This document shows positions 830 through 38,594 of a DNA stretch of 38,594 nt, in pieces. This DNA is from a virus, in IMG/VR virus record IMGVR_UViG_3300035688_000769, positions 1 to 38,594 of that record. One strand, given 5' to 3'. The notes below the pieces were generated by a model. The model saw only the letters and a program-made list of their open reading frames with translations. It was not told the DNA's origin and ran no database searches. Made by a program: the position numbers and the translations under genes. The stretch's first letter is position 1, and each line of letters starts with the position of its first letter.

Positions 830-871
830 AACTATTTTTTCTGACGGCGAATGCGCGGCGTAAAAATAGTT
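830..871. repeat. Inverted repeat beside the first rightward promoter
   Basis: AACTATTTTT (830-839) and AAAAATAGTT (862-871) are perfect 10-base inverted arms separated by a GC-rich 22-base centre. The right arm ends one base before the -35 box at 873. The position suggests an operator or other protein-binding site between the divergent promoters; this is inferred. Confidence 0.45.
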
Positions 872-872
872 C

Positions 873-900
873 TTGACAATCACTTTTTGCAGGTTATATT
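873..900 (+). promoter_or_regulatory. Promoter of short RNA 1
   Basis: The -35 TTGACA lies at 873-878 and the -10 TATATT at 895-900, with a 16-base spacer. The whole box region is similar to the promoter at 1007-1034 (shared CTTGACAA, ACTTT and GTTATA blocks), which suggests that promoter and RNA were duplicated together. Confidence 0.65.
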
Positions 901-906
901 TTCAGT

Positions 907-985
907 TGCAAGGTCGGGGCGTAAGCCAATGGATGCGCAGTAGTGCATCGGAGAGAGCGCAACTCGCAAGCGCTCTCTTTTATTT
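907..985 (+). ncRNA. Short RNA 1, about 80 nt
   Basis: The predicted transcript runs from just after the -10 to the T-run of the terminator. It contains a small hairpin GATGC-N8-GCATC and then the terminator hairpin. There is no ribosome site or convincing ORF. The last 46 bases and the GATGC/GCATC stem recur in short RNA 2, while the loop of that stem differs. Function is unknown; transcript ends are estimates. Confidence 0.5.
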
Positions 986-988
986 CAG
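943..988 (+). repeat. 46-bp exact direct repeat, copy 1
   Basis: This block is identical to 1088-1133, exactly 145 bases further on. It covers half of a small stem, the complete terminator and the start of the following spacer. The flanks (for example GGCGTGAAAA after the repeat) are also similar. Confidence 0.9.
952..985 (+). terminator. Intrinsic terminator of short RNA 1
   Basis: A perfect 9-bp stem AGAGAGCGC / GCGCTCTCT with a 9-base loop is followed by TTTTATTT. Confidence 0.8.
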
Positions 989-1006
989 AGAGGCGTGAAA
1001 AAAGCC

Positions 1007-1034
1007 TTGACAACTACTTTGGGCGAGTTATAGT
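1007..1034 (+). promoter_or_regulatory. Promoter of short RNA 2
   Basis: The -35 TTGACA lies at 1007-1012 and the -10 TATAGT at 1029-1034, with a 16-base spacer. It begins 19 bases after the end of the first 46-bp repeat. Confidence 0.65.
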
Positions 1035-1040
1035 TCAGGC

Positions 1041-1130
1041 AATCCGTTATTGCCCTGTCTGCCAACGGAGTTTGGATGCGCGGTGGGGTGCATCGGAGAG
1101 AGCGCAACTCGCAAGCGCTCTCTTTTATTT
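1041..1130 (+). ncRNA. Short RNA 2, about 90 nt
   Basis: This transcript is parallel to short RNA 1: variable 5' part, a GATGC-N10-GCATC stem and an identical terminator. The 5' part is 10 bases longer and differs in sequence from unit 1. If the RNAs are regulators, the variable 5' ends would be the specific portions. No ORF with a ribosome site is seen. Confidence 0.5.
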
Positions 1131-1133
1131 CAG
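1088..1133 (+). repeat. 46-bp exact direct repeat, copy 2
   Basis: Identical to 943-988 over all 46 bases; it contains the second terminator. Confidence 0.9.
1097..1130 (+). terminator. Intrinsic terminator of short RNA 2
   Basis: Same 9-bp stem, 9-base loop and TTTTATTT tail as the terminator at 952-985. Confidence 0.8.
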
Positions 1134-1163
1134 GCAGGCGTGAAAATAATTTTGGTTTTCCCC

Positions 1164-1192
1164 TTGACAAATCCTTTGCGTCATCATATAAA
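1164..1192 (+). promoter_or_regulatory. Promoter of short transcript 3
   Basis: The -35 TTGACA (1164-1169) and -10 TATAAA (1187-1192) are separated by an ideal 17-base spacer. This is the best promoter match of the three, but it is not similar in its spacer to the other two. Confidence 0.7.
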
Positions 1193-1198
1193 GATAAC

Positions 1199-1302
1199 AA
1201 CAATCGTAGAAGGAGTAGTAGAAAATGAAAGTCTTACAAAAAGCCGTTTGGGGTTCAGAAGGCAAATACTCCGAGCCGCGATTGTTACCCACGCGGCTTT
1301 TT
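1199..1302 (+). ncRNA. Short transcript 3, about 100 nt, with ribosome site but no stop before its terminator
   Basis: The predicted RNA starts near 1199, has a strong GAAGGAG site at 1209-1215 and an ATG at 1225, and meets an intrinsic terminator at 1274-1302. The frame from the ATG does not reach a stop until 1345-1347 (40 codons, beginning MKVLQKAVWGSEGKY). A terminated RNA would therefore be a non-stop message. No gene lies downstream on this strand, so ordinary attenuation of a following gene is not supported. Confidence 0.45.
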
Positions 1303-1347
1303 GTATGCCTATCGGCTCCGCCGAGGCGTATCGTAGGCGCAAAGTAA
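1225..1347 (+). CDS. Possible 40-aa ORF spanning a terminator
   Basis: The ORF has a good ribosome site (GAAGGAG, 9 bases before the ATG) and a strong promoter, but an intrinsic terminator lies inside it at 1274-1302. The C-terminal half is read through that hairpin and looks like translated noncoding sequence (Pro, Arg and Leu rich). It may be a leader peptide, a non-stop mini-message, or an accident of a noncoding RNA. No family is recognised. Confidence 0.25.
   Translation: MKVLQKAVWGSEGKYSEPRLLPTRLFVCLSAPPRRIVGAK
1274..1302 (+). terminator. Intrinsic terminator of short transcript 3
   Basis: A 7-bp stem AGCCGCG / CGCGGCT with an 11-base loop, followed by TTTTT. Confidence 0.75.
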
Positions 1348-3197: not shown

Positions 3198-5201
3198 TTA
3201 TGAGGATGCCGTCTGTCCAGACTTTTCTAATACTGAAAGTATAGCGGCAATTCTTGTTATGCAAGTAGCAAGGTCTGTCGCATCAATAATATGTCCGGGT
3301 TGTGCAGTAGTCGGTGTTACTCCCCAGAATCCCCCTCCACCCTGAAATAGACCATCGTTAGCAACAATGTTGCCCGTAGAGACAACTTTTATCGCAATGC
3401 AGAAACACAAACGACCTCTAAATGTATTGGAAGGAGTAAAGGTCAGTTGGCCAATGGGGGATACACATTTGAACACATCTCGATAGATTCCACTTACCTC
3501 TTCTATAACTGAAACATCATCAACTGAAAGACGCGCTGTATTCGTAGTCAAAAATTGAAGAGTTCCCGTTGATTCAGCAATAAATTTTTCTGTATATGTT
3601 CCGTTAGCACTCCTTATTGTCAATCCTACTCCACCGCAAGTTGGAGTTACGCTTCCAGCCGTTCTGTTTTTTACCGTGTATGTGAGATAATATCTTTTAC
3701 CTACTTCCACTCCTATATCTTGTTGCAATAGTCCTGTTCCGTTAGTTGCGTGGTCTGCCTCGTGATTCGTGGCATCATAACTCCAGTCAGTTCCATATGT
3801 CCAAGTTCCCGCAGCGCCAAAATCTCCATTCACAACCTTTTCGATACCAGTTATCGAAATTGTCTGTCCAGTTACACCACCAAGTGAAATTACTACATCG
3901 CCTGTTTGTATTGTCGTTGAAAACCACTTATGATATATTATCCAAGTTTCACCACTTGCAGGAGTGAAGTTTGTGCATACCAAAGTCTCTGTTCCGTTCT
4001 CATAATGTTCTACATAATGGTCAAGAGAATACTCATAACCCCACTGCCAATGTGCGCCCAAAATCCAGTCCGTAGTTCCTGTAAAGAAGTCCCAGTCAAT
4101 TCCCGTCCGATTCGGGGTTGCTATTCCAACTACCACATCGCCGTAGCCTGTGATGCGCAAGCGTTCTGTTACATCATTTCCAAACAGCGTTTTCAGCGAA
4201 AGATAGCCGGATTCGTTGATACCAGCACTTCCATTCCAGTTATCAGTTACTTCCTGACCAACTGCAATTCTTGCGCCAACAACCTCAAAGGGATAATTAC
4301 TCCAATATCCCAAAGCAATAGCCGCCTCCGAACCTTCAGGAACCGTTGGAATATGAATATCTGTAAAACTGAAAATATCTATAACAGTTCCATCCGCACC
4401 TTCTCTCCTTGCTGCCCATAAACCCGTCAAATAACCAAGAGTGTTCGCGTCATAGCCCAAAGCAACCTGCGAATTCACGCCGTCAAAGGAAAAGGCTGCT
4501 AATTGCGCGGCAAAGGCAGGGTCATAACCAAAGACGGAAGCATCGCCGTAAAACATAGAAATCTGAAAAAAGGAGGTATTATACCAGACCCAAGCGTGAG
4601 AATCGGTCGTGGAATCTGCCTGCCAAATATGATACCGCGTTCCAACAGACGGATTCGCGCTATCAGGTGCATAGAACTTCATCCACGGCGCGTAGGTATC
4701 GCCCATCTCCAGATTCAAGCCGTCAAAAGTAGGACTGTTAGGAGTCAGTATCATTCCAACAAACGCGGGACTGTCTGTAGTTGCCACGCCTTGATTCATT
4801 CCCACCGCATAGGTATTCGCAGAATACACAGGGTCAGTTTCAGCATCCAGATAACCCGCATCATTTGCGAAGATTGACACATTCGGCGGAAGGGCAAGCC
4901 AAGCCGCAAAGACAGGGTCTGACTCGGAAGGAATGTCACCGTTATGCAGAAGTGTTCTTGATGCCGTCCCATCGTAAAACTTCAAGTCTGCGCCGTGACG
5001 CACTAACTGACCCGTAATAGTAGGCGCGGCAGCATTGTCGGCAAACTTCGCTATCTTCAAACCAAGTGTGTCAAGAAGATAATCGTAAGTGAGCGCAGAA
5101 TCACCTTTGATATAATCATCGTCGTTGAACAGAACCTCTGTATCATTACTTCTATATCCCACAACCTCCGCCATCATCACATCAAGGTCAAAACTTGGCA
5201 T
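3198..5201 (-). CDS. Tail fibre or spike-like protein with carbohydrate-binding-like module, 667 aa
   Basis: The beta-rich sequence is typical of fibre proteins: N-terminal repeats of the type DPVFAAWLALPP and DPVYSANTY, a central region with YAPWMKFYAPDS, and a C-terminal helix probably for trimerisation (IAAILSVLEKSGQ). Residues 455-568 form a discrete beta module starting VVNGDF and ending SVDDVSV, with a conserved TPTCGG and SANGTYTEKF. The module resembles CBM-type jelly-roll domains and is close to two copies in the nozzle-like protein (16770-17483). The ATG lies 1 base after the upstream stop. It likely binds host surface glycans; the exact ligand is unknown. Confidence 0.75.
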   Translation of the reverse strand: MPSFDLDVMMAEVVGYRSNDTEVLFNDDDYIKGDSALTYDYLLDTLGLKIAKFADNAAAPTITGQLVRHGADLKFYDGTASRTLLHNGDIPSESDPVFAAWLALPPNVSIFANDAGYLDAETDPVYSANTYAVGMNQGVATTDSPAFVGMILTPNSPTFDGLNLEMGDTYAPWMKFYAPDSANPSVGTRYHIWQADSTTDSHAWVWYNTSFFQISMFYGDASVFGYDPAFAAQLAAFSFDGVNSQVALGYDANTLGYLTGLWAARREGADGTVIDIFSFTDIHIPTVPEGSEAAIALGYWSNYPFEVVGARIAVGQEVTDNWNGSAGINESGYLSLKTLFGNDVTERLRITGYGDVVVGIATPNRTGIDWDFFTGTTDWILGAHWQWGYEYSLDHYVEHYENGTETLVCTNFTPASGETWIIYHKWFSTTIQTGDVVISLGGVTGQTISITGIEKVVNGDFGAAGTWTYGTDWSYDATNHEADHATNGTGLLQQDIGVEVGKRYYLTYTVKNRTAGSVTPTCGGVGLTIRSANGTYTEKFIAESTGTLQFLTTNTARLSVDDVSVIEEVSGIYRDVFKCVSPIGQLTFTPSNTFRGRLCFCIAIKVVSTGNIVANDGLFQGGGGFWGVTPTTAQPGHIIDATDLATCITRIAAILSVLEKSGQTASS

Positions 5202-6986: not shown

Positions 6987-9900
6987 TTACTTATTTTCCT
7001 TTATAGGCAAAAACACTTTTTTCCGCTCCTCTGGTGACAGGTCACCTGTTGTTGGATACTCACTCAACTTCTCTTTACCAAGAGCCGCTCGCGCCGTCCC
7101 TGTCAGGAGTTTCAATCTCATACCTTCGTCTTTTACTTTGTTCCTTATGTTGGACATCCTATCAGCAATGTGGGAAAACTTGTGATATTCTCTTGCCAAA
7201 TCAGGAGAGATTGGTTTTCGTTTTAGTGCCAACTGGCGTTTGGCGGAATCATATGCTTGTTGTAATTCTCTCCAACGGTCATTGAATTGTTGCACATCTG
7301 GTGTCAAACGTTCCTTTGTAAGTCGTTCAAATGATTGCAAGACGCTCTCAACAGGCAAACCTAAACAATATCCAGTTGATTTGGCTATATCTTCGATTGC
7401 TCTTTTTGCTGTATCCTCCCATTTTGTTTCATACTTTTGGGGACCTTGCTTGTAGTATTCGTCATTGATAGCCTGCGAAATTGCTTGTGTCAACTCCGTG
7501 GCAGCCTTTATTATTGTGTCTATTGTCGTTTCCCAGATATTTCCTCTTGTTGTTATCATAGCAGGTGCCACACCTGCGAGTGCCTTTTCCGTCCGATAGA
7601 TAAACTGCGATATGAAGGGACCCGCGGCAGGCACATTACTTCCCAGTTCTCGCGCCAGTCCCCAAATATGTTCTTCTGGCTTTTTATGTTTGCGACCACT
7701 TATTAGAACTCCCAACCCTTCCCGAATAGCATAAACCATAAGGGCGTTACCAAGAGTAGGCACAATAATCTTGCCTGCCAATCGGACATAATCATTTACG
7801 GTCTTCCCGCTCTGACGCCATTCGGTTACCCCCTCAAGTGCTACATTCAAATTCTTGCTTATAGCGGAAGTAAATACCAGAAACGGTTTCATCCAAGGGT
7901 TTTTCAAGGAAAGATTGTGCAAAGTAGAGATTGTCAACGGGTCCCAAGTTGATTGCGTATCAGCGACAGCCTCTTCTGCCGTCTCTGCCGTATATTTCAT
8001 CAAGGTATCGCCCGTCAATCCCTTTGCGACTCCCTGTCTTTTGGCGGCTTGCCAAGTAAGTCGAGTGGCAAAGTTATCTCCCTTTTGATATAGGTTCATA
8101 GACACATTCTGGGTTTTTGCGAGAGGTCCTTCTATACCCAAATAAGTTTCCAATGATGTCCGACTTGTCCCCGGCGTTATCAATTCGTTTCCTGTGGAGG
8201 TCTCTCGGTTATACAACAGGTCTGACCACTGCGATATTTCAGCATCTACATTTTTTATCAATGCCGGTATATTCTTCAAATCCGATAAGGCGGCAGTAAC
8301 GTGTTTCGCTTCGATGTGACCAGAAACAAGTAGGTTGACGTAACTGATAGGTTGCATAACAAGAGTAGGCAATCGCAAGACAAGAATTCCCGTCTGTATG
8401 GTCCGCGTAATCTCTCTAATTGCCGAATCCAATTTATTTGTAGGCATAAAATCCAACCCCTGCCAACTGCGCACGAAATCCTCTAATTTCCGGATTATTT
8501 CAGTGCCTTCAGGTGTTGAATTTCTTATTGCTTCGCGCACACGATGGTCTTGGAGAATTGTGAGAGCATTCATTGTCGGTAATTCTTTTGCAGTATAAAT
8601 CGCCATCCGGATCGCTTGTCTGCGGGTATTCTCTATCGCACCTTCAATCACAAAGGGGGCATTTGAAATGTGTCGGTCTTTGAATATACCCATATCGTGT
8701 GCATATCGTTCAATCCAATATGCTTGCACTTTATTTGGTTCTACTTTTCTATATTCGCCTTCGCGTTGACGATGGAAGTAATCAGCACGCCTGGGTAAGT
8801 CATAGTTATATTCTTTGACCCAAACTGGGTCAAGTTCCGCACGCATATCCCTATTGATAAAATTGCGTAGTTTGTATGCTATTTCCGTCTGTCGCGGAGT
8901 GAGATGTTGAATTAGCGCTGCAAAATCTTGAGGATACAGTTTGACCGGAAGTTTATGAGGGTCTCGACTGAAAGTAAAACCTTCCTGCTTTTTGCGCCAG
9001 AGTTCTCTTTGAGTGCTGGAGTCTTGCACATCCAAAAACTGTTCCATTATTTCGTTTGGCGTTACCTGCATTTCGGTAACTCGTTCACCCTTTGAATCCA
9101 CCGCCGTAGGCAGTTCCACACGCACAACAGAATGCAACAATTCCTTATATTCTGCCTTTGTAGCGAGATTATCAAAGAATGTCTTGATTCTCCGAGTCAA
9201 ACCTGCGGAGGTTCTTTCCCCTCCAAAGACTTTCGTCCAGAGAGCATCATATAATGCACCATTCTTAGGTGCTACCTTGCGTATCGTATTTTTATAGTTC
9301 TTCTGGTCATATATCAAAGCGTGGACAATCTTCTTCGGAGCAGAAATCAACCCGGCTTTCTTAGGCTCAACATATACCCCCGCTTTTGTCTTTTCACTTT
9401 GTGAAATCTTTTCAACTTCTGCCACTATCGCTTTTACTTTCGTCTCGTATGATTCCTCTGCGCGTCCTGCCAAAAGTTTATTTTTTTCAGCGCTTTGATG
9501 TATAAGTGACTGGATAGTTGTTATGATTCCGCGTAAATCTTCGGGCGCAAGGTCTCTGATATATGGTTTCCCTGTATCTGACAATCGTTCTTTTGCCTTG
9601 TCGATAAGAATCTGTGGCACTTCCATTGGACTTCTTTCCGCAAACGCCAACATACTTTTATATCTCTTTAGTGTCTTTTCCAGTGGCATTTTCAACTGAA
9701 ATCCTGAAAGTAAATCGTTGAGTCGACCCTGAAATTCCGGGCGCAAACGTGGGTCTTTGCTCTCTCGTAACAGTCCTTTTACTTCTGTTATGAGCGATTG
9801 CTTCTCATATTTTTGCGTCATTAGATTGATGGCATCGACTATTTTCGCACGTGCAGATTTTTGCGTTTTCATAACCGCTACACGTTCCATAACTTTGGCA

Positions 9901-14948: not shown

Positions 14949-17696
14949 CTATAATTTCCTTTGCCTACCTGCTTGCTCTATCACCGCCAGTATGCGTTCA
15001 AGCGCCCAATGTGCCCTCGTTTCACCATCTGCCAACGTGCCTTTCTTTATCTTCAAGGTGAAACATCCACCTTTTGCGCGCGGTCGGTCTTTGTAGTTCA
15101 ATCCTGCCGTCCACGTGCCTGTCTTGAACGCAGCCGCTGACATCACCGCCTCTGGTGTATCGGCAACACGCAATTCCCAGTCAACTTTGCATCCTTCGGC
15201 AACTGTGCCAATCAATTCTACCAGACTGCCTATTGAGTAATCATCCCAGAGCCGAATTGGGCCGATAACTACACAGGAGTCTATTTCTTGACCATCATCA
15301 AGTGCATTGGCATCCTTTGTGATTCGGATATAACCATCATAACAACCAAATAGAACACCTCTTCGTGCAACATTGTTCGCCCTATAATCAAATAGATAAA
15401 ACGGTTCGTGATTAGAAAGGATATAGGTATCTTTCCAGAATGTCTTGGTCTGCCAATCAAACCACCAATGTTGACTGGACTGATACGTAATCAAATCAAA
15501 TTTCAGAGTGTGAAAAATCCCAGCGCCCGCATTCACCGAAAATCTAATTTTGTCAACTTTCGATAGGTCAAAGTTAGGGTCGTTGATGTAATACGAATTC
15601 AAGTCAATATCGAAACGATACCAGATGTCGGCAAGAAATTTCTGAACGCCTGAAATATCGAAACTTCTATGGTCACTTCCACTATCAAGCGAGAGAATTA
15701 CCCAGTTGAAATCAGACCATATATGATTACTTTTGAACCAAAGACTGATATATTTCTCTTTAGAAAGGTCAACCTCCTCGGGCGGAGTGAATATATAATT
15801 GTATGCCGCACCACCGGTAGTGCCACCAGTTATGGACAAAGAACCTATACCTTCCTTTTTATCAATGGTATCGATAACAGCGGTTGGAAGTCCCGTCCAA
15901 CCAGAAAGCGTATCGCAGGAACAAATGAGGTCATATACGCCTAATTTTTCTCCACTGGCAATCGCCGTCAAAGCAATATAGATTCCTCTGAACTCAGGCG
16001 AAAATTCCAAACTTACTGTATAGAGAGAGACATCAACATTGAGCAATTCTTCGGGTAACTTTTCTCTTGAGAGACTCTGGGGTGTTACCATAGCACATCC
16101 CTGCACGATGTAGAGACCATCGAAACTCAAGAATACAATCTCACCTGTCGGAGTGCAGCACCACGCCTTCTTATCAATTATTCCTATTTTTCGGCTCAAG
16201 TTGAGTAACTGTCCGCCATAAGCAGGGTCACCTCGTAATAACCAAAGTTCGTCAGTGCAACCAAAAATCATACAATCATCGCTGTAACAAACTTGCGCCT
16301 TTATCGGTTTACCAACTAATCCTGCTTGAGATAATGTGCCTGCAACTGCTCTGGCGTAATCCGAATCGGGTTGACCGTAATCCCAGTCGTAAGGGTCGCC
16401 TTGACGACTCATAAACCAAGCGTGAGGCGCCACGAGAGAACCTGACACGACCAATCGGTCGCGGTAAAGCGATACGAGTGGACAACTTCCCGGCACTGAA
16501 CCCTTACCTGCGGTCGCCTCATAAATGGACAAAGTATCCGCGACATAATCATAAACCTTTGGTGCTTTATCTACGCAAAAGGAACAATTACCAGTGCCCG
16601 CAGACGCAGTAAGAATAAGTGTTCCTGTGGTGATTTCACTTATTTTGTATGTCCCATTTATAGCACCTGTTCCACCGTCATAGATTGAGCAAATATCGCT
16701 GTTCTTATCTATTCCCAATTCAAGCCAGTTGGATATACTTAGAGATGTAAGATAACCCTGCGGAACTAATGTTGCCTTTACTGAAACATCATCAATAGAA
16801 AATCGTGCCGTAACAACATCGGGGATAAATGATAATCCTTCTGTTGAGGTCGTAACGAACTGCTCTGTGTATATGCCGTTTGCACTTCTTTGTGTCAGCA
16901 TTGCTCCACCACAGGTGGGCGTAACTTTCCCCGCGTTCAGAGCCTTGACTGTGTATTGAAGGGTATATGTTTTATTGGCTTCTATTACAATAGATTGCCA
17001 AAGTGTTCCAGCGCCATCTGTTCCGTGTGTGCCACACGCCTGACCTTCATTCCAATACCAACCAGTGCCATAAGTCCACACTGCGGCAGTTGCAAAATTC
17101 CCATTTGTTACCAGTTCGTTTCCGAGCAATACTTCTTTGACCGAAACATTGTCAATCGAAAGTAAAGGGTCTTCCCCGTGAGCATTGACTGCAAATTCAA
17201 GTTCGCCCGTAGAAGAAGTTACAAACTGTTCCGTGTATATACCATTTCCTCTTCTCTCAATTAGTGTTGTTCCACCACAAGTGGGAATAATACCCCAGAG
17301 GGTCATTGAATTTTTTACTTGGAAAGTAATCTCATATCTTTTGTTTGCCACTACTCCAATATTCTGAGATAATTTACCAGCATTCGGAAAGAAATAATCC
17401 GCTTCTTTATTTACGGCATCGTAACTCCATCCAAGACCATAAGTCCAAGTTCCCGCGCTGGCGAAATCCCCATTTACTACTTTCTCTTCTCCAAGAAGGT
17501 CGTGGACAGTAAGAATCCCATCGGTATATTTCGCTTTGACATTACCATAGTCGGCGATAAATAGTTTGTTACCTCTTGCTGCGGTTGTGAGTTGTCGTGT
17601 TGAAGAAAGTATCAGATTGGTCGTAAGAGGAGTCAGCACACCTTCTGTCTTTTCGCGGTATAAAACTCCATTAGCGCTGGCGATGAAGTATTCCAC
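14949..17696 (-). CDS. Tail nozzle-like protein, main part, with inserted modules, 915 aa
   Basis: The core carries nozzle-type signatures: PLVSLYRDRLVVSG then HAWFMSRQGDPYDWDYG (about 403-440), DELWLLRGDP, and a repeat of the type GEIVFLSFDGLYIVQG. Residues 72-189 and 193-309 are tandem CBM-like modules related to one in the fibre gene at 3198. Residues 320-373 are a small beta module also seen in adaptor and decoration proteins. The GTG start (17696-17694) has GGAG at good spacing. However, it lies in the same frame as the 84-aa ORF that precedes it, separated by one TAA and one TGC codon. The two ORFs look like one nozzle gene split by a stop. Confidence 0.7.
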   Translation of the reverse strand: MEYFIASANGVLYREKTEGVLTPLTTNLILSSTRQLTTAARGNKLFIADYGNVKAKYTDGILTVHDLLGEEKVVNGDFASAGTWTYGLGWSYDAVNKEADYFFPNAGKLSQNIGVVANKRYEITFQVKNSMTLWGIIPTCGGTTLIERRGNGIYTEQFVTSSTGELEFAVNAHGEDPLLSIDNVSVKEVLLGNELVTNGNFATAAVWTYGTGWYWNEGQACGTHGTDGAGTLWQSIVIEANKTYTLQYTVKALNAGKVTPTCGGAMLTQRSANGIYTEQFVTTSTEGLSFIPDVVTARFSIDDVSVKATLVPQGYLTSLSISNWLELGIDKNSDICSIYDGGTGAINGTYKISEITTGTLILTASAGTGNCSFCVDKAPKVYDYVADTLSIYEATAGKGSVPGSCPLVSLYRDRLVVSGSLVAPHAWFMSRQGDPYDWDYGQPDSDYARAVAGTLSQAGLVGKPIKAQVCYSDDCMIFGCTDELWLLRGDPAYGGQLLNLSRKIGIIDKKAWCCTPTGEIVFLSFDGLYIVQGCAMVTPQSLSREKLPEELLNVDVSLYTVSLEFSPEFRGIYIALTAIASGEKLGVYDLICSCDTLSGWTGLPTAVIDTIDKKEGIGSLSITGGTTGGAAYNYIFTPPEEVDLSKEKYISLWFKSNHIWSDFNWVILSLDSGSDHRSFDISGVQKFLADIWYRFDIDLNSYYINDPNFDLSKVDKIRFSVNAGAGIFHTLKFDLITYQSSQHWWFDWQTKTFWKDTYILSNHEPFYLFDYRANNVARRGVLFGCYDGYIRITKDANALDDGQEIDSCVVIGPIRLWDDYSIGSLVELIGTVAEGCKVDWELRVADTPEAVMSAAAFKTGTWTAGLNYKDRPRAKGGCFTLKIKKGTLADGETRAHWALERILAVIEQAGRQRKL
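16770..17120 (-). repeat. CBM-like module, second copy in nozzle gene
   Basis: Codes for residues 193-309 (starts LVTNGNF, contains TPTCGG and SANGIYTEQF, ends SIDDVSV). It is protein-level related to 17130-17483 and 3498-3839. Confidence 0.75.
17130..17483 (-). repeat. CBM-like module, first copy in nozzle gene
   Basis: Codes for residues 72-189 (starts KVVNGDF, contains IPTCGG and GNGIYTEQF, ends SIDNVSV). It is followed after four residues by the second copy. Confidence 0.75.
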
Positions 17697-22824: not shown

Positions 22825-23865
22825 TTATACCTTATACGTCTTTATACATCTGCGTCTGTCAAGGCATACTGTCGCATACTTCAGGTCATACCAGACTACC
22901 AAGTCGTTGTGTCTATTCCATACCTCCTTTGCATCGCTGCGTCTCATCTTCCAATCCTTGAGGTAGAGCATCTTGAAAACCGTGTGGTCAATCCCATATA
23001 TCGGGTTAGTCGCGTCATCATTAAGTATTGGCACATAGACAAGTGGATGTCTCTTGAACGTTACTTGCCCATCATAAGGGAACAAATCGCGTCCAAGATT
23101 TTCGGTTTGCCCTTCTCCAATAGTTTCTAAGGCGTCTATTGTGTCGTTATTCATATAATAACGCAGGTCTTGACCACGCGAACCCCTGAAGTCCTCAACT
23201 GTCACAGGCGATTCCCACTGTGTGAGTCTGTGGGCAGTTCTCCATGGTTTTATCAGGGCATCCTTCGTGTAAGCGCTGTAAGTAAAGGTATAGTTCTTGT
23301 AGTTGGCATTGTCAGGTGCAGCCGCACTGGTATCCAGTCCTCCAACTGTTGAGTAACCTGGGGGATTGCCACCATTGAAACCAGTAGATGCGTTACCAAC
23401 AATCCAGTAAGGAATCCCTAATGGTTTTCTCGTATCTCCCGGGTCTTTCAAGGTGAACATCGCGCTTTCGAGGTCGTCTGAGGCACTGATAAGCGCACTG
23501 GCTTCGCCTAACGCAAGAAGGTCAGTCAACTTTGACTCGCCAGCATTCATTGTGACTTCAGTCTTGTCGTAAACGTAATGCGTATCATAATGCGACCACT
23601 CACCACTGATGTTTTCCAACTTTGGCGCATCAACAATGGTATCTACTTCGTGAATGCCAACGTGTCTTCCAGCCGCTGTAATATGGATTGCCAATCGCCT
23701 CTTCCAGCCTATACCATTACTTTGCTCTTCTGCTTTGGGAAGCCACTTGGTCATAACCTCATAACGTTGTCTCGCCTGTAGTAACTGCACCCAGTCACCT
23801 GGGGCGAGGTCTTGCAACGTAGAGTTGACCAAATCAAGAATTTCACTATCTGCAAGTCCAGGCAT
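22825..23865 (-). CDS. Major capsid protein, 346 aa
   Basis: The position immediately after the scaffold gene, the length and the composition all fit an HK97-fold capsid protein. Visible features include an N-terminal helix (ADSEILDLVNSTLQDLAPGD), a long spine-helix-like stretch (TDLLALGEASALISASDDLE), a Gly/Pro-rich loop (GNASTGFNGGNPPGY) and a C-terminal domain with NPIYGIDHTVFKMLYLKDW. A late beta strand (LVVWYDLKYATVCLDRRRC) closes the protein. The ATG follows AAAGGA. I see no pro-head protease gene nearby, and the first residues are not an obvious cleaved delta domain; a separate scaffold does that job. Confidence 0.75.
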   Translation of the reverse strand: MPGLADSEILDLVNSTLQDLAPGDWVQLLQARQRYEVMTKWLPKAEEQSNGIGWKRRLAIHITAAGRHVGIHEVDTIVDAPKLENISGEWSHYDTHYVYDKTEVTMNAGESKLTDLLALGEASALISASDDLESAMFTLKDPGDTRKPLGIPYWIVGNASTGFNGGNPPGYSTVGGLDTSAAAPDNANYKNYTFTYSAYTKDALIKPWRTAHRLTQWESPVTVEDFRGSRGQDLRYYMNNDTIDALETIGEGQTENLGRDLFPYDGQVTFKRHPLVYVPILNDDATNPIYGIDHTVFKMLYLKDWKMRRSDAKEVWNRHNDLVVWYDLKYATVCLDRRRCIKTYKV

Positions 23866-37111: not shown

Positions 37112-37468
37112 TTAGTGAATTTCCACATCAATTTCTTGCTCTTTTAGTTTCGCCCCAACTATCTGCCGATGGCAGAACTCGCCCTCGTATTCCCAACACA
37201 AAAGCGTAATTTCGGGAACGCGGTAGAGAGCCTTTATCGCCGCGGCAATTTCTCCCCACTTATCGCCTATCTCACAGAGATACAATCGCGTATATTCTGT
37301 TTCTGATTCCACATAACCGCGCTTCCAAATACCAAGAAGTTTCGCGGAAGGCATTAGAACGGGTATGTCAGAAAGTTCCCGAAATGCAGGCGGCTTTGAG
37401 CGTGCAATAGAAAGTAGTAACCCGTGATGATTCTGAGGAGCAAAAAAACTCGCTGTATAGATTTTCAT
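37112..37468 (-). CDS. DUF488-like protein, 118 aa
   Basis: The C-terminal signature LLCWEYEGEFCHRQIVGAKL matches the DUF488 family pattern (LLC-x-E ... CHR). The N-terminal half (MKIYTASFFAPQNHHGLLLS, then a Leu/Lys-rich middle) is a typical lead-in. The ATG overlaps the previous stop (ATGA). The family is small, with a conserved Cys and His-Arg, and its biochemical role is unsettled. In phages it appears sporadically among accessory genes. Confidence 0.75.
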   Translation of the reverse strand: MKIYTASFFAPQNHHGLLLSIARSKPPAFRELSDIPVLMPSAKLLGIWKRGYVESETEYTRLYLCEIGDKWGEIAAAIKALYRVPEITLLCWEYEGEFCHRQIVGAKLKEQEIDVEIH

Positions 37469-37704: not shown

Positions 37705-38114
37705 ACCTTCCCCTTTCTCCCTTTCGCTATTTCCTTACGCACGTGCCAAGCGCCGGCGCGCTTCTCGCAGACTGCAAGCACCTGCGCCTCAAGTTCTGAT
37801 TCGGCTACAATACTACTAACAACTTCACCTCTATATCGCAGAGTAAATCTGTAAACGAATTCAGCACCTATTCCATAATCGGCGAGCCAGACAAATCCCA
37901 ATTCTGTGAGTCTCTGCCGCACTTCCATCGCGGCTTTGGCGTCTTGTGTAGGCTGAAAAGGATATGCCGCACTATATGCTGTTATGCCTCTGTCCTTATA
38001 CCAAAACCAAACTTCTGGTTCGTCACTATCGGGACTATGCTTATGCCAATCCATCAACTCGACCGCAATCACATTGTCAATCGCGGTCATATCTTCCTGT
38101 GTCAGTTCATTCAT
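37701..38114 (-). CDS. Phage ABA sandwich-like (Phage_ABA_S) protein, 137 aa
   Basis: The N-terminal pattern IDNVIAVELMDWHKH, followed by a Trp-rich loop, AYPFQPTQDAKAAMEVRQRL and TELGF, matches the small phage domain in which a conserved helix (VAE-x-MGW) is followed by a YST-type loop and an amphipathic helix. The C-terminal half (FVYRFTLRYRGEVVSSIVAE) is a beta sheet. The ATG lies after AAGGAG, overlapping the Ala-rich gene by ATGA. The domain is common in phage early regions and its function is unknown. Confidence 0.7.
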   Translation of the reverse strand: MNELTQEDMTAIDNVIAVELMDWHKHSPDSDEPEVWFWYKDRGITAYSAAYPFQPTQDAKAAMEVRQRLTELGFVWLADYGIGAEFVYRFTLRYRGEVVSSIVAESELEAQVLAVCEKRAGAWHVRKEIAKGRKGKV

Positions 38115-38594
38115 TCCTTCTCCTTTCCCTTCAGCGCCTCGCGCGGCTTTGGATATTCCGGGAAATACTTGCGCACAATCTTCGCTTCCCTGAGTAGCAC
38201 TGAAGCACCGGCAGCACCGGCAGCAGCATAGGCAGCACCGGCAGCATTACAGGCAGCATCGGCAGCACCGGCAGCACCGGCAGCACCGGCAGCATTACAG
38301 GCAGCATTACCGGCAGCATCGGCAGCATCGGCAGCACCGGCAGCACCGGCAGCAGCATAGGCAGCACCGGCAGCATTACAGGCAGCATTACAGGCAGCAT
38401 AGGCAGCACCGGCAGCATTACAGGCAGCAGCATAGGCAGCACCGGCAGCGGTTTTTACTTCTTTCATACTTGCCCGACCTTTTGCCCATCTTTCTGTGGT
38501 TTCTATTGCTTGCAGCGGACGTTCCTCACCTTTCGGCACATATCTCAGTGCCAATCGCGCACACTGGCAGGCTGCGAGAATCAGTTTTTTGCGG
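38111..38594 (-). CDS. Ala/Gly/Asn/Cys repeat protein, C-terminal part, enters from the right edge
   Basis: The frame is open to the right edge. The most upstream residues here (RKKLILAACQCARLALRYVP) lead into a conserved segment (ERPLQAIETTERWAKGRASM) resembling the Imm5-like class of Ala-rich proteins. Residues are then Ala-rich repeats of GAAYAA, CNAA and DAA units over about 85 residues, then a charged C terminus (LLREAKIVRKYFPEYPKPRE). An internal TTG at 38554 is not needed as start. Joined to 149-1 it gives a single protein of about 210 aa. Function is unknown; it is not known to be an immunity protein here. Confidence 0.75.
   Translation of the reverse strand, partial: RKKLILAACQCARLALRYVPKGEERPLQAIETTERWAKGRASMKEVKTAAGAAYAAACNAAGAAYAACNAACNAAGAAYAAAGAAGAADAADAAGNAACNAAGAAGAAGAADAACNAAGAAYAAAGAAGASVLLREAKIVRKYFPEYPKPREALKGKEKE
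38198..38449 (-). repeat. Tandem trinucleotide-based repeats inside the Ala-rich gene
   Basis: Units of the type GGCAGCACC, GGCAGCATTACA and GGCAGCATAGGCAGCA recur along about 250 bases. They keep the reading frame and encode Gly-Ala-Ala, Cys-Asn-Ala-Ala and Tyr-Ala-Ala blocks. Such DNA is prone to length change and assembly error. Confidence 0.85.

Follow-up and report, generated by a model that had tools for sequence, protein, structure and literature searches.

Three promoter–terminator units in the gene-free zone of an uncultured tailed phage: candidate sibling small RNAs and a possible self-pairing leader

What does a phage make from promoters that are each followed, within about a hundred bases, by a terminator and that lead into no clear gene? 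The question is raised by IMGVR_UViG_3300035688_000769, a single IMG/VR virus record whose positions 1–38,594 were analysed as one stretch of DNA (hereafter the window). On sequence grounds the source is an uncultured tailed phage; it encodes a terminase, an N6/N4-type DNA methyltransferase and a clamp-loader-like ATPase, and most of its other genes have no assigned function. Used as host predictors, the relatives of the methyltransferase and of the clamp loader belonged to mixed taxa and did not identify a host. The zone without genes extends from 610 to 1600, with leftward genes starting at ~592 on its left side and others, also leftward, ending at 1610 on its right. It holds one leftward promoter (762–735) and three rightward promoters (873, 1007 and 1164), which head the three units of what we call the cassette (Table 1).

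Promoters and terminators of the cassette

The first-pass annotation described three TTGACA promoters, each followed by an intrinsic terminator within about 80–110 bases, and this description holds. In all three rightward promoters the TTGACA is perfect, the spacing is 16 or 17 and the −10 box has 5/6 matches; the terminator ends 78, 89 and 106 nt from the −10 box in units 1, 2 and 3, respectively. Across both strands of the 38.6 kb only four promoters reach at least 11/12 matches, namely these three on the plus strand and the one at 762 on the minus strand. When TTGACA, a spacing of 16–18 and a −10 box of at least 5/6 were taken as the criterion, 3 promoters were observed on the plus strand of 600–1620, against a mean of 0.0016 and a maximum of 1 in 5000 shuffles. 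Moreover, none of 12 composition-matched shuffles of the whole window yielded a promoter of at least 10/12 followed by a comparable terminator. All three units are predicted to fold more stably than their dinucleotide shuffles (z in Table 1), and the minima of a sliding-window z on the plus strand take in all three. Past 1304 z is near −1 and we claim no structured RNA there.

Table 1. Features of the gene-free zone, in window coordinates. z, fold energy against dinucleotide shuffles; relative, IMGVR_UViG_3300035701_000093.
Feature	Position	Strand	Details
Leftward promoter and structured leader	610–762	−	TTGACA at 762, TATACT to 735; stem GTCCTGCG/CGCAGGATTC-TTTT, terminator-like
Boundary repeat 1	857–866	+	GGCGTAAAAA
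Promoter 1	873–900	+	TTGACA-16-TATATT, 11/12 matches
Unit 1 RNA	907–985	+	Start estimated from −10 box; variable 5′ part to 929, hairpin 932–949, terminator 950–985; z = −3.1
46-nt exact repeat	943–988 and 1088–1133	+	Copies 1 and 2
Terminator stems, units 1 and 2	950–980 and 1095–1125	+	Identical; 9-nt loop AACTCGCAA, tail TTTTATTT
Boundary repeat 2	992–1001	+	GGCGTGAAAA; absence of unit 1 in relative joins here
Promoter 2	1007–1034	+	TTGACA-16-TATAGT, 11/12; identical in relative
Unit 2 RNA	1041–1130	+	Start estimated; 5′ hairpin 1043–1069, hairpin 1075–1094, terminator 1095–1130; z = −2.7; identical in relative
Boundary repeat 3	1137–1146	+	GGCGTGAAAA
Promoter 3	1164–1192	+	TTGACA-17-TATAAA, 11/12; identical in relative
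Unit 3 RNA	1199–1304	+	z = −2.4; identical in relative
Unit 3 segments 1, 2, 3, 4	1199–1217, 1236–1252, 1267–1287, 1288–1304	+	
40-codon frame	1225–1347	+	ATG 1225 behind AAGGAG 1210–1215; crosses unit 3 terminator
Unit 3 terminator	1274–1298, or longer stem 1236–1304	+	
Leftward operon terminator	1537–1587	−	Stem GGGCAGGTG/CACCCGCCC then TTTTTT; operon ends at 1610

Sibling units and the one relative

Units 1 and 2 resemble each other unevenly along their length. From −35 to −10 they are identical at 21/28 positions, their transcribed 5′ parts are no more alike than shuffled sequence, the hairpin and terminator agree at 48/52 positions and the 24 bases past the terminator at 21/24. The similarity of the two promoters, the variable 5′ part, the 46-bp exact repeat and a conserved stem with a variable loop had all been pointed out in the first-pass annotation, and each was recovered. 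In the short hairpin the stem GATGCGC/GTGCATC is kept around an apical loop that reads AGTA in unit 1 and GGTGGG in unit 2, and the terminator loop and linker are invariant between the units. The 3′ module is free of drift where the promoter spacer has drifted, and therefore its sequence, not its fold alone, seems to be important, unless the likeness is maintained by gene conversion, which could account for the 46-nt identity instead of selection.

No ORF with coding-like codon use lies within units 1 and 2. Each has its own promoter and, inside the range of 50–300 nt, a terminator with no coding frame between, and by every feature that can be tested in sequence they are intrinsically terminated sRNA genes with predicted transcripts. 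They also have the anatomy of tandem siblings, being adjacent paralogous copies that each carry a promoter and a terminator.

The motif GGCGTRAAAA marks the unit boundaries, occurring at 857, 992 and 1137 and nowhere else on either strand of the window. In IMG/VR the cassette was found in a single other record, IMGVR_UViG_3300035701_000093 (40,898 bases); the viral contigs gave this one relative whether the query was the repeat, the hairpin pattern, the leader of the minus strand or flanking proteins. It lacks exactly unit 1, and its sequence is joined where boundary repeats 1 and 2 would meet. Across 1002–1540, which comprises units 2 and 3 and the sequence that follows, it shows 0/539 substitutions, compared with 14/1195 (1.2% divergence) in the neighbouring genes (p ~0.002 under a uniform rate). 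Selection is the simplest reading of this identity, and recent recombination is the alternative. Conservation in related phages, proposed in the first-pass annotation as a test, is weakly testable with one relative, in which units 2 and 3 are unchanged and unit 1 is absent.

Left of the join, the block at 610–690 is kept in the relative (80/82 columns), 691–795 matches at 80/120, and 796–866 matches at 64/71 in a scripted alignment and with one difference in another. We favour loss of unit 1 in the relative, either direction being possible, on two grounds: a fresh duplication would have left the units with more similar 5′ parts, and the join cuts into an inverted repeat before promoter 1 (AACTATTTTT/AAAAATAGTT), of which one arm is lost. 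The two arms of this repeat (831–840 and 861–870) lie directly upstream of promoter 1, where it may serve as an operator or as an A-tract element. Among TerL relatives of 30–35% identity no promoter–terminator unit was seen. Taken together, the like promoters, the constant 3′ module, the bounding repeats, the one-copy relative and the 0/539 divergence make a duplicated small-RNA locus, as suggested from the first reading of the sequence, a well-supported interpretation of units 1 and 2. It does not extend to unit 3, which stands outside the duplication.

Elsewhere, the early genes and those of 1610–2804 are common to both phages and 90–98% identical, and the structural gene block at 2904–33630 gives no DNA alignment; a mosaic boundary, as read from these alignments, lies near the cassette. 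In the relative ~7.3 kb lie between its matches to the two ends of the window. A DUF488-N3a family protein (37112–37468, minus strand; Pfam PF22751, over the cut-off) is encoded in the early region and is 95% identical in the relative. The minus-strand gene at 38111–38554 encodes a protein rich in Ala/Asn/Gly repeats (AGAAYAACNA units, from 9- and 12-base repeats) with weak similarity, under the curated cut-off, to an Imm5-like immunity protein family. An 89-nt segment recurs with 73% identity within two different large leftward genes (3754–3842 and 17398–17486), apparently a domain common to two probable structural proteins. A scan for relatives of the 22825–23865 protein found none.

The leftward promoter at 762, which the first-pass annotation did not mention, retains both hexamers in the relative, with a spacer altered in sequence and length. 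Its predicted leader forms a three-way junction, closed by the stem listed in Table 1 and followed by TTTT. In both phages the 5′ part of this leader holds three copies of GRCGAGAA, a motif complementary to the TTCTCGTC loop; for this tail-loop complementarity ~15% of shuffles are equal, and no claim is made. The leftward genes that come after the leader are not the same in the two phages, and for this reason the leader may act as an attenuator or represent a fourth short RNA. At the other side of the zone, the terminator at 1537–1587 separates the leftward operon from the plus-strand units; in the relative its bases change and its stem is kept, an A.C mismatch at 1547 being a pair there.

Predicted self-pairing in unit 3

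By its sequence unit 3 is not a third copy of units 1 and 2, and it looks like a self-regulated mini-mRNA or an attenuator/leader. The earlier statement that the 430 bases contain no clear gene stands for units 1 and 2 and needs qualifying here, where a good Shine-Dalgarno, AAGGAG, precedes a frame of 40 codons. This frame, like the boundary repeats, had gone unmentioned. Its product has no PHROGs match and does not resemble the hydrophobic peptides of type I systems. The 5′ end of the RNA, AACAAUCGUAGAAGGAGUA (1199–1217), starts at the expected start site, includes the Shine-Dalgarno and is complementary to 1267–1287, with two blocks free of mismatches that comprise at least 8 and at least 6 pairs. 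The duplex has an energy of −19.0 kcal/mol, compared with −5.7 ± 2.7 for shuffles, of which 0/2000 were as good, and its target is part of the loop that the long terminator stem (1236–1252 with 1288–1304) encloses.

The predicted pairings are of segment 1 with 3, of 2 with 4 and of part of 3 with 4, and the 2:4 pairing is the minimum-energy fold. In predicted nascent chains the 5′ pairing is dominant to 1291, the short terminator prevails at 1298 and the long one at 1304. From these models we read folding, translation start and termination in unit 3 as coupled. A transcript that ended at the unit 3 terminator would carry no stop codon for the 40-codon frame.

Trp-type leaders combine a leader frame, competing 1:3, 2:4 and 3:4 pairings and a terminator at the end. 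Unit 3 is like them in its leader frame and in competing pairings that end in a terminator, and unlike them in that no regulated gene comes after, the Shine-Dalgarno is part of segment 1 and the frame encloses the terminator. Its predicted folds include mutually exclusive pairings, the terminator among them. Between 1304 and the opposing operon, however, there is no plausible regulated gene on the plus strand, only the 40-codon frame itself, which would therefore be the sole evident client of the putative switch. For want of this downstream gene we do not file unit 3 as an attenuator, though the competing pairings are present; in our model it would work like one without being classed as one.

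Possible roles of the cassette RNAs

The model that we propose starts from what can be read directly in the DNA, that is, the promoter and terminator sequences, the repeats, the difference in copy number, the constancy of sequence and the self-complementarity of unit 3. We place about half of our confidence in a cassette of three short RNAs, in which units 1 and 2 would be sibling trans-acting sRNAs and unit 3 a self-regulated leader or mini-mRNA. We infer that three separate RNAs are transcribed from strong promoters of the host-sigma70 type, and with promoters so close to consensus they could therefore appear at DNA entry with no phage protein required. In units 1 and 2 the constant 3′ module, a short hairpin and a terminator with the invariant AACUCGCAA loop, would stabilise the RNA, bind a chaperone and perhaps supply a seed common to both, and the differing 5′ parts would give each RNA its own target in trans, most likely among host messages or RNAs. 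The first-pass annotation had also offered regulation of phage messages, for which we found no sign: duplex energies of the cassette RNAs with the start regions of the phage's own genes were no better than those of shuffled sequence. Copies would be gained or lost via recombination between the GGCGTRAAAA repeats that bound the units. In unit 3 the 5′ end, which holds the Shine-Dalgarno, would pair with the terminator loop of the same RNA and so tie translation of the short frame to termination.

Searches of databases gave no family to which the cassette belongs. Rfam, at gathering and relaxed thresholds and with the CRISPR repeat families included, had no match, and DNA similarity among phage and plasmid records gave nothing useful. 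The hairpin pattern had 3 matches in 84,980 genomes, all in coding sequence and without terminator or promoter, which we judged to be chance. A complement of the invariant loop, placed antisense-wise in the relative's gene at 9291, was dropped, as it is absent from the window's homologue.

Units 1 and 2 nevertheless have likenesses in known systems. The E. coli prophage sRNAs PasA and PasA-2 have a common 3′ end and divergent first 40 bases (PMC13192938). Like units 1 and 2 the Pas sRNAs are phage-borne, exist in more than one version and combine a conserved 3′ end and terminator with a divergent 5′ part; their copies lie at least 22 kb apart and come from different prophages (PMC13192938), whereas units 1 and 2 are in tandem. 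No sequence relation to the Pas sRNAs was found and none is claimed. NgncR_162/163 of Neisseria (PMC9973317) are likewise adjacent paralogous sRNAs with similar folds, and OmrA/OmrB and PrrF1/PrrF2 are named as siblings in PMC13192938. All of these pairs are chromosomal, and NgncR_162/163 are 78% identical with a target set in common (PMC9973317), unlike the unrelated 5′ parts here. The EHEC prophage anti-sRNAs AgvB and AsxR are short phage RNAs (54–60 nt) that act on host RNAs; their host targets are known (PMC12197685), whereas those of units 1 and 2 are only proposed. Racr RNA anti-CRISPRs resemble the cassette as small phage RNAs directly after a strong promoter and away from cas genes, but they mimic CRISPR repeats (PMC10651486), to which the cassette has no match in Rfam, and an anti-CRISPR reading is unsupported.

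A base-pairing role best fits a variable 5′ part on a constant tail, and PasA and PasA-2 offer a near precedent from prophages (PMC13192938). The constancy of the tail also fits decoys: made in abundance, units 1 and 2 would sequester a protein or RNA of the host (an RNA chaperone, an RNase, a host sRNA or an RNA-binding protein of a defence system), with the 3′ module as bait and the 5′ parts as filler. We regard this as unlikely. The module is kept, loop included, where the 5′ parts are not, strong tandem promoters suit production in large amounts, and AgvB and AsxR do titrate host sRNAs (PMC12197685); yet there is no candidate partner, Rfam holds no known protein-binding RNA that they resemble, and different 5′ hairpins would be needless in a bait. 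Quite unlikely, in our estimation, is that the units are attenuated leaders, past which antitermination, in some conditions, lets plus-strand reading continue rightward into RNA that is antisense to the last part of the leftward operon (1610–2804), and so delays its genes. All three units point at that end, unit 3 has its competing pairings, and lambdoid phages have early promoters with an overridable terminator downstream. Against this, no plus-strand gene lies downstream, no antitermination protein was recognised, and a single switch has no need of three promoter–terminator units.

That short transcripts prime or regulate DNA synthesis at a replication origin is very unlikely: the gene-free zone does hold opposing promoters, A/T-rich tracts (1430–1500) and a palindrome (1434–1446), but GC skew does not change sign at the cassette, its sole switch being near 31.5 kb, and neither a replication initiator nor an iteron array was recognised alongside. 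Antitoxin-like RNAs, raised in the first-pass annotation and here considered as type I or type III, gained no support and are highly improbable. Repeated structured RNAs ahead of a terminator would suit them, as would a possible small pseudoknot in unit 2 (matched by 2/300 shuffles), a fold that ToxI also contains. The 5′ strand of that pseudoknot, however, overlaps the expected start site of unit 2, which may exclude it; no toxin gene was found among the neighbours scanned, nor any match in Rfam; and unit 3 has neither a type I peptide nor a strong antisense promoter over it. In ToxIN-like type III systems a toxin follows the repeats, whereas the genes next to these repeats run the opposite way and match no toxin family, and because no toxin follows, units 1 and 2 do not belong among the type III antitoxins. 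Just as improbable is a chance or relic cluster with no function. Unit 1 is dispensable, since the relative lacks it, but the cluster is far beyond chance in shuffles and 539 nt stayed unchanged while the neighbouring genes changed.

In summary, the RNAs of units 1 and 2 are probably regulators that the phage produces from the outset of infection, and as such a known kind of element. A bolder proposal, which we consider unlikely, is a modular cassette with a fixed 3′ scaffold-terminator, exchangeable 5′ targeting parts and repeat-driven change of copy number, joined to a self-pairing switch in unit 3 of a kind not on record. Work on phage sRNAs has mostly concerned a handful of model phages and prophages. 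In this phage every plus-strand consensus promoter of the host type leads into a predicted short RNA with no clear gene, an arrangement suggesting that the cassette RNAs are among its first products.
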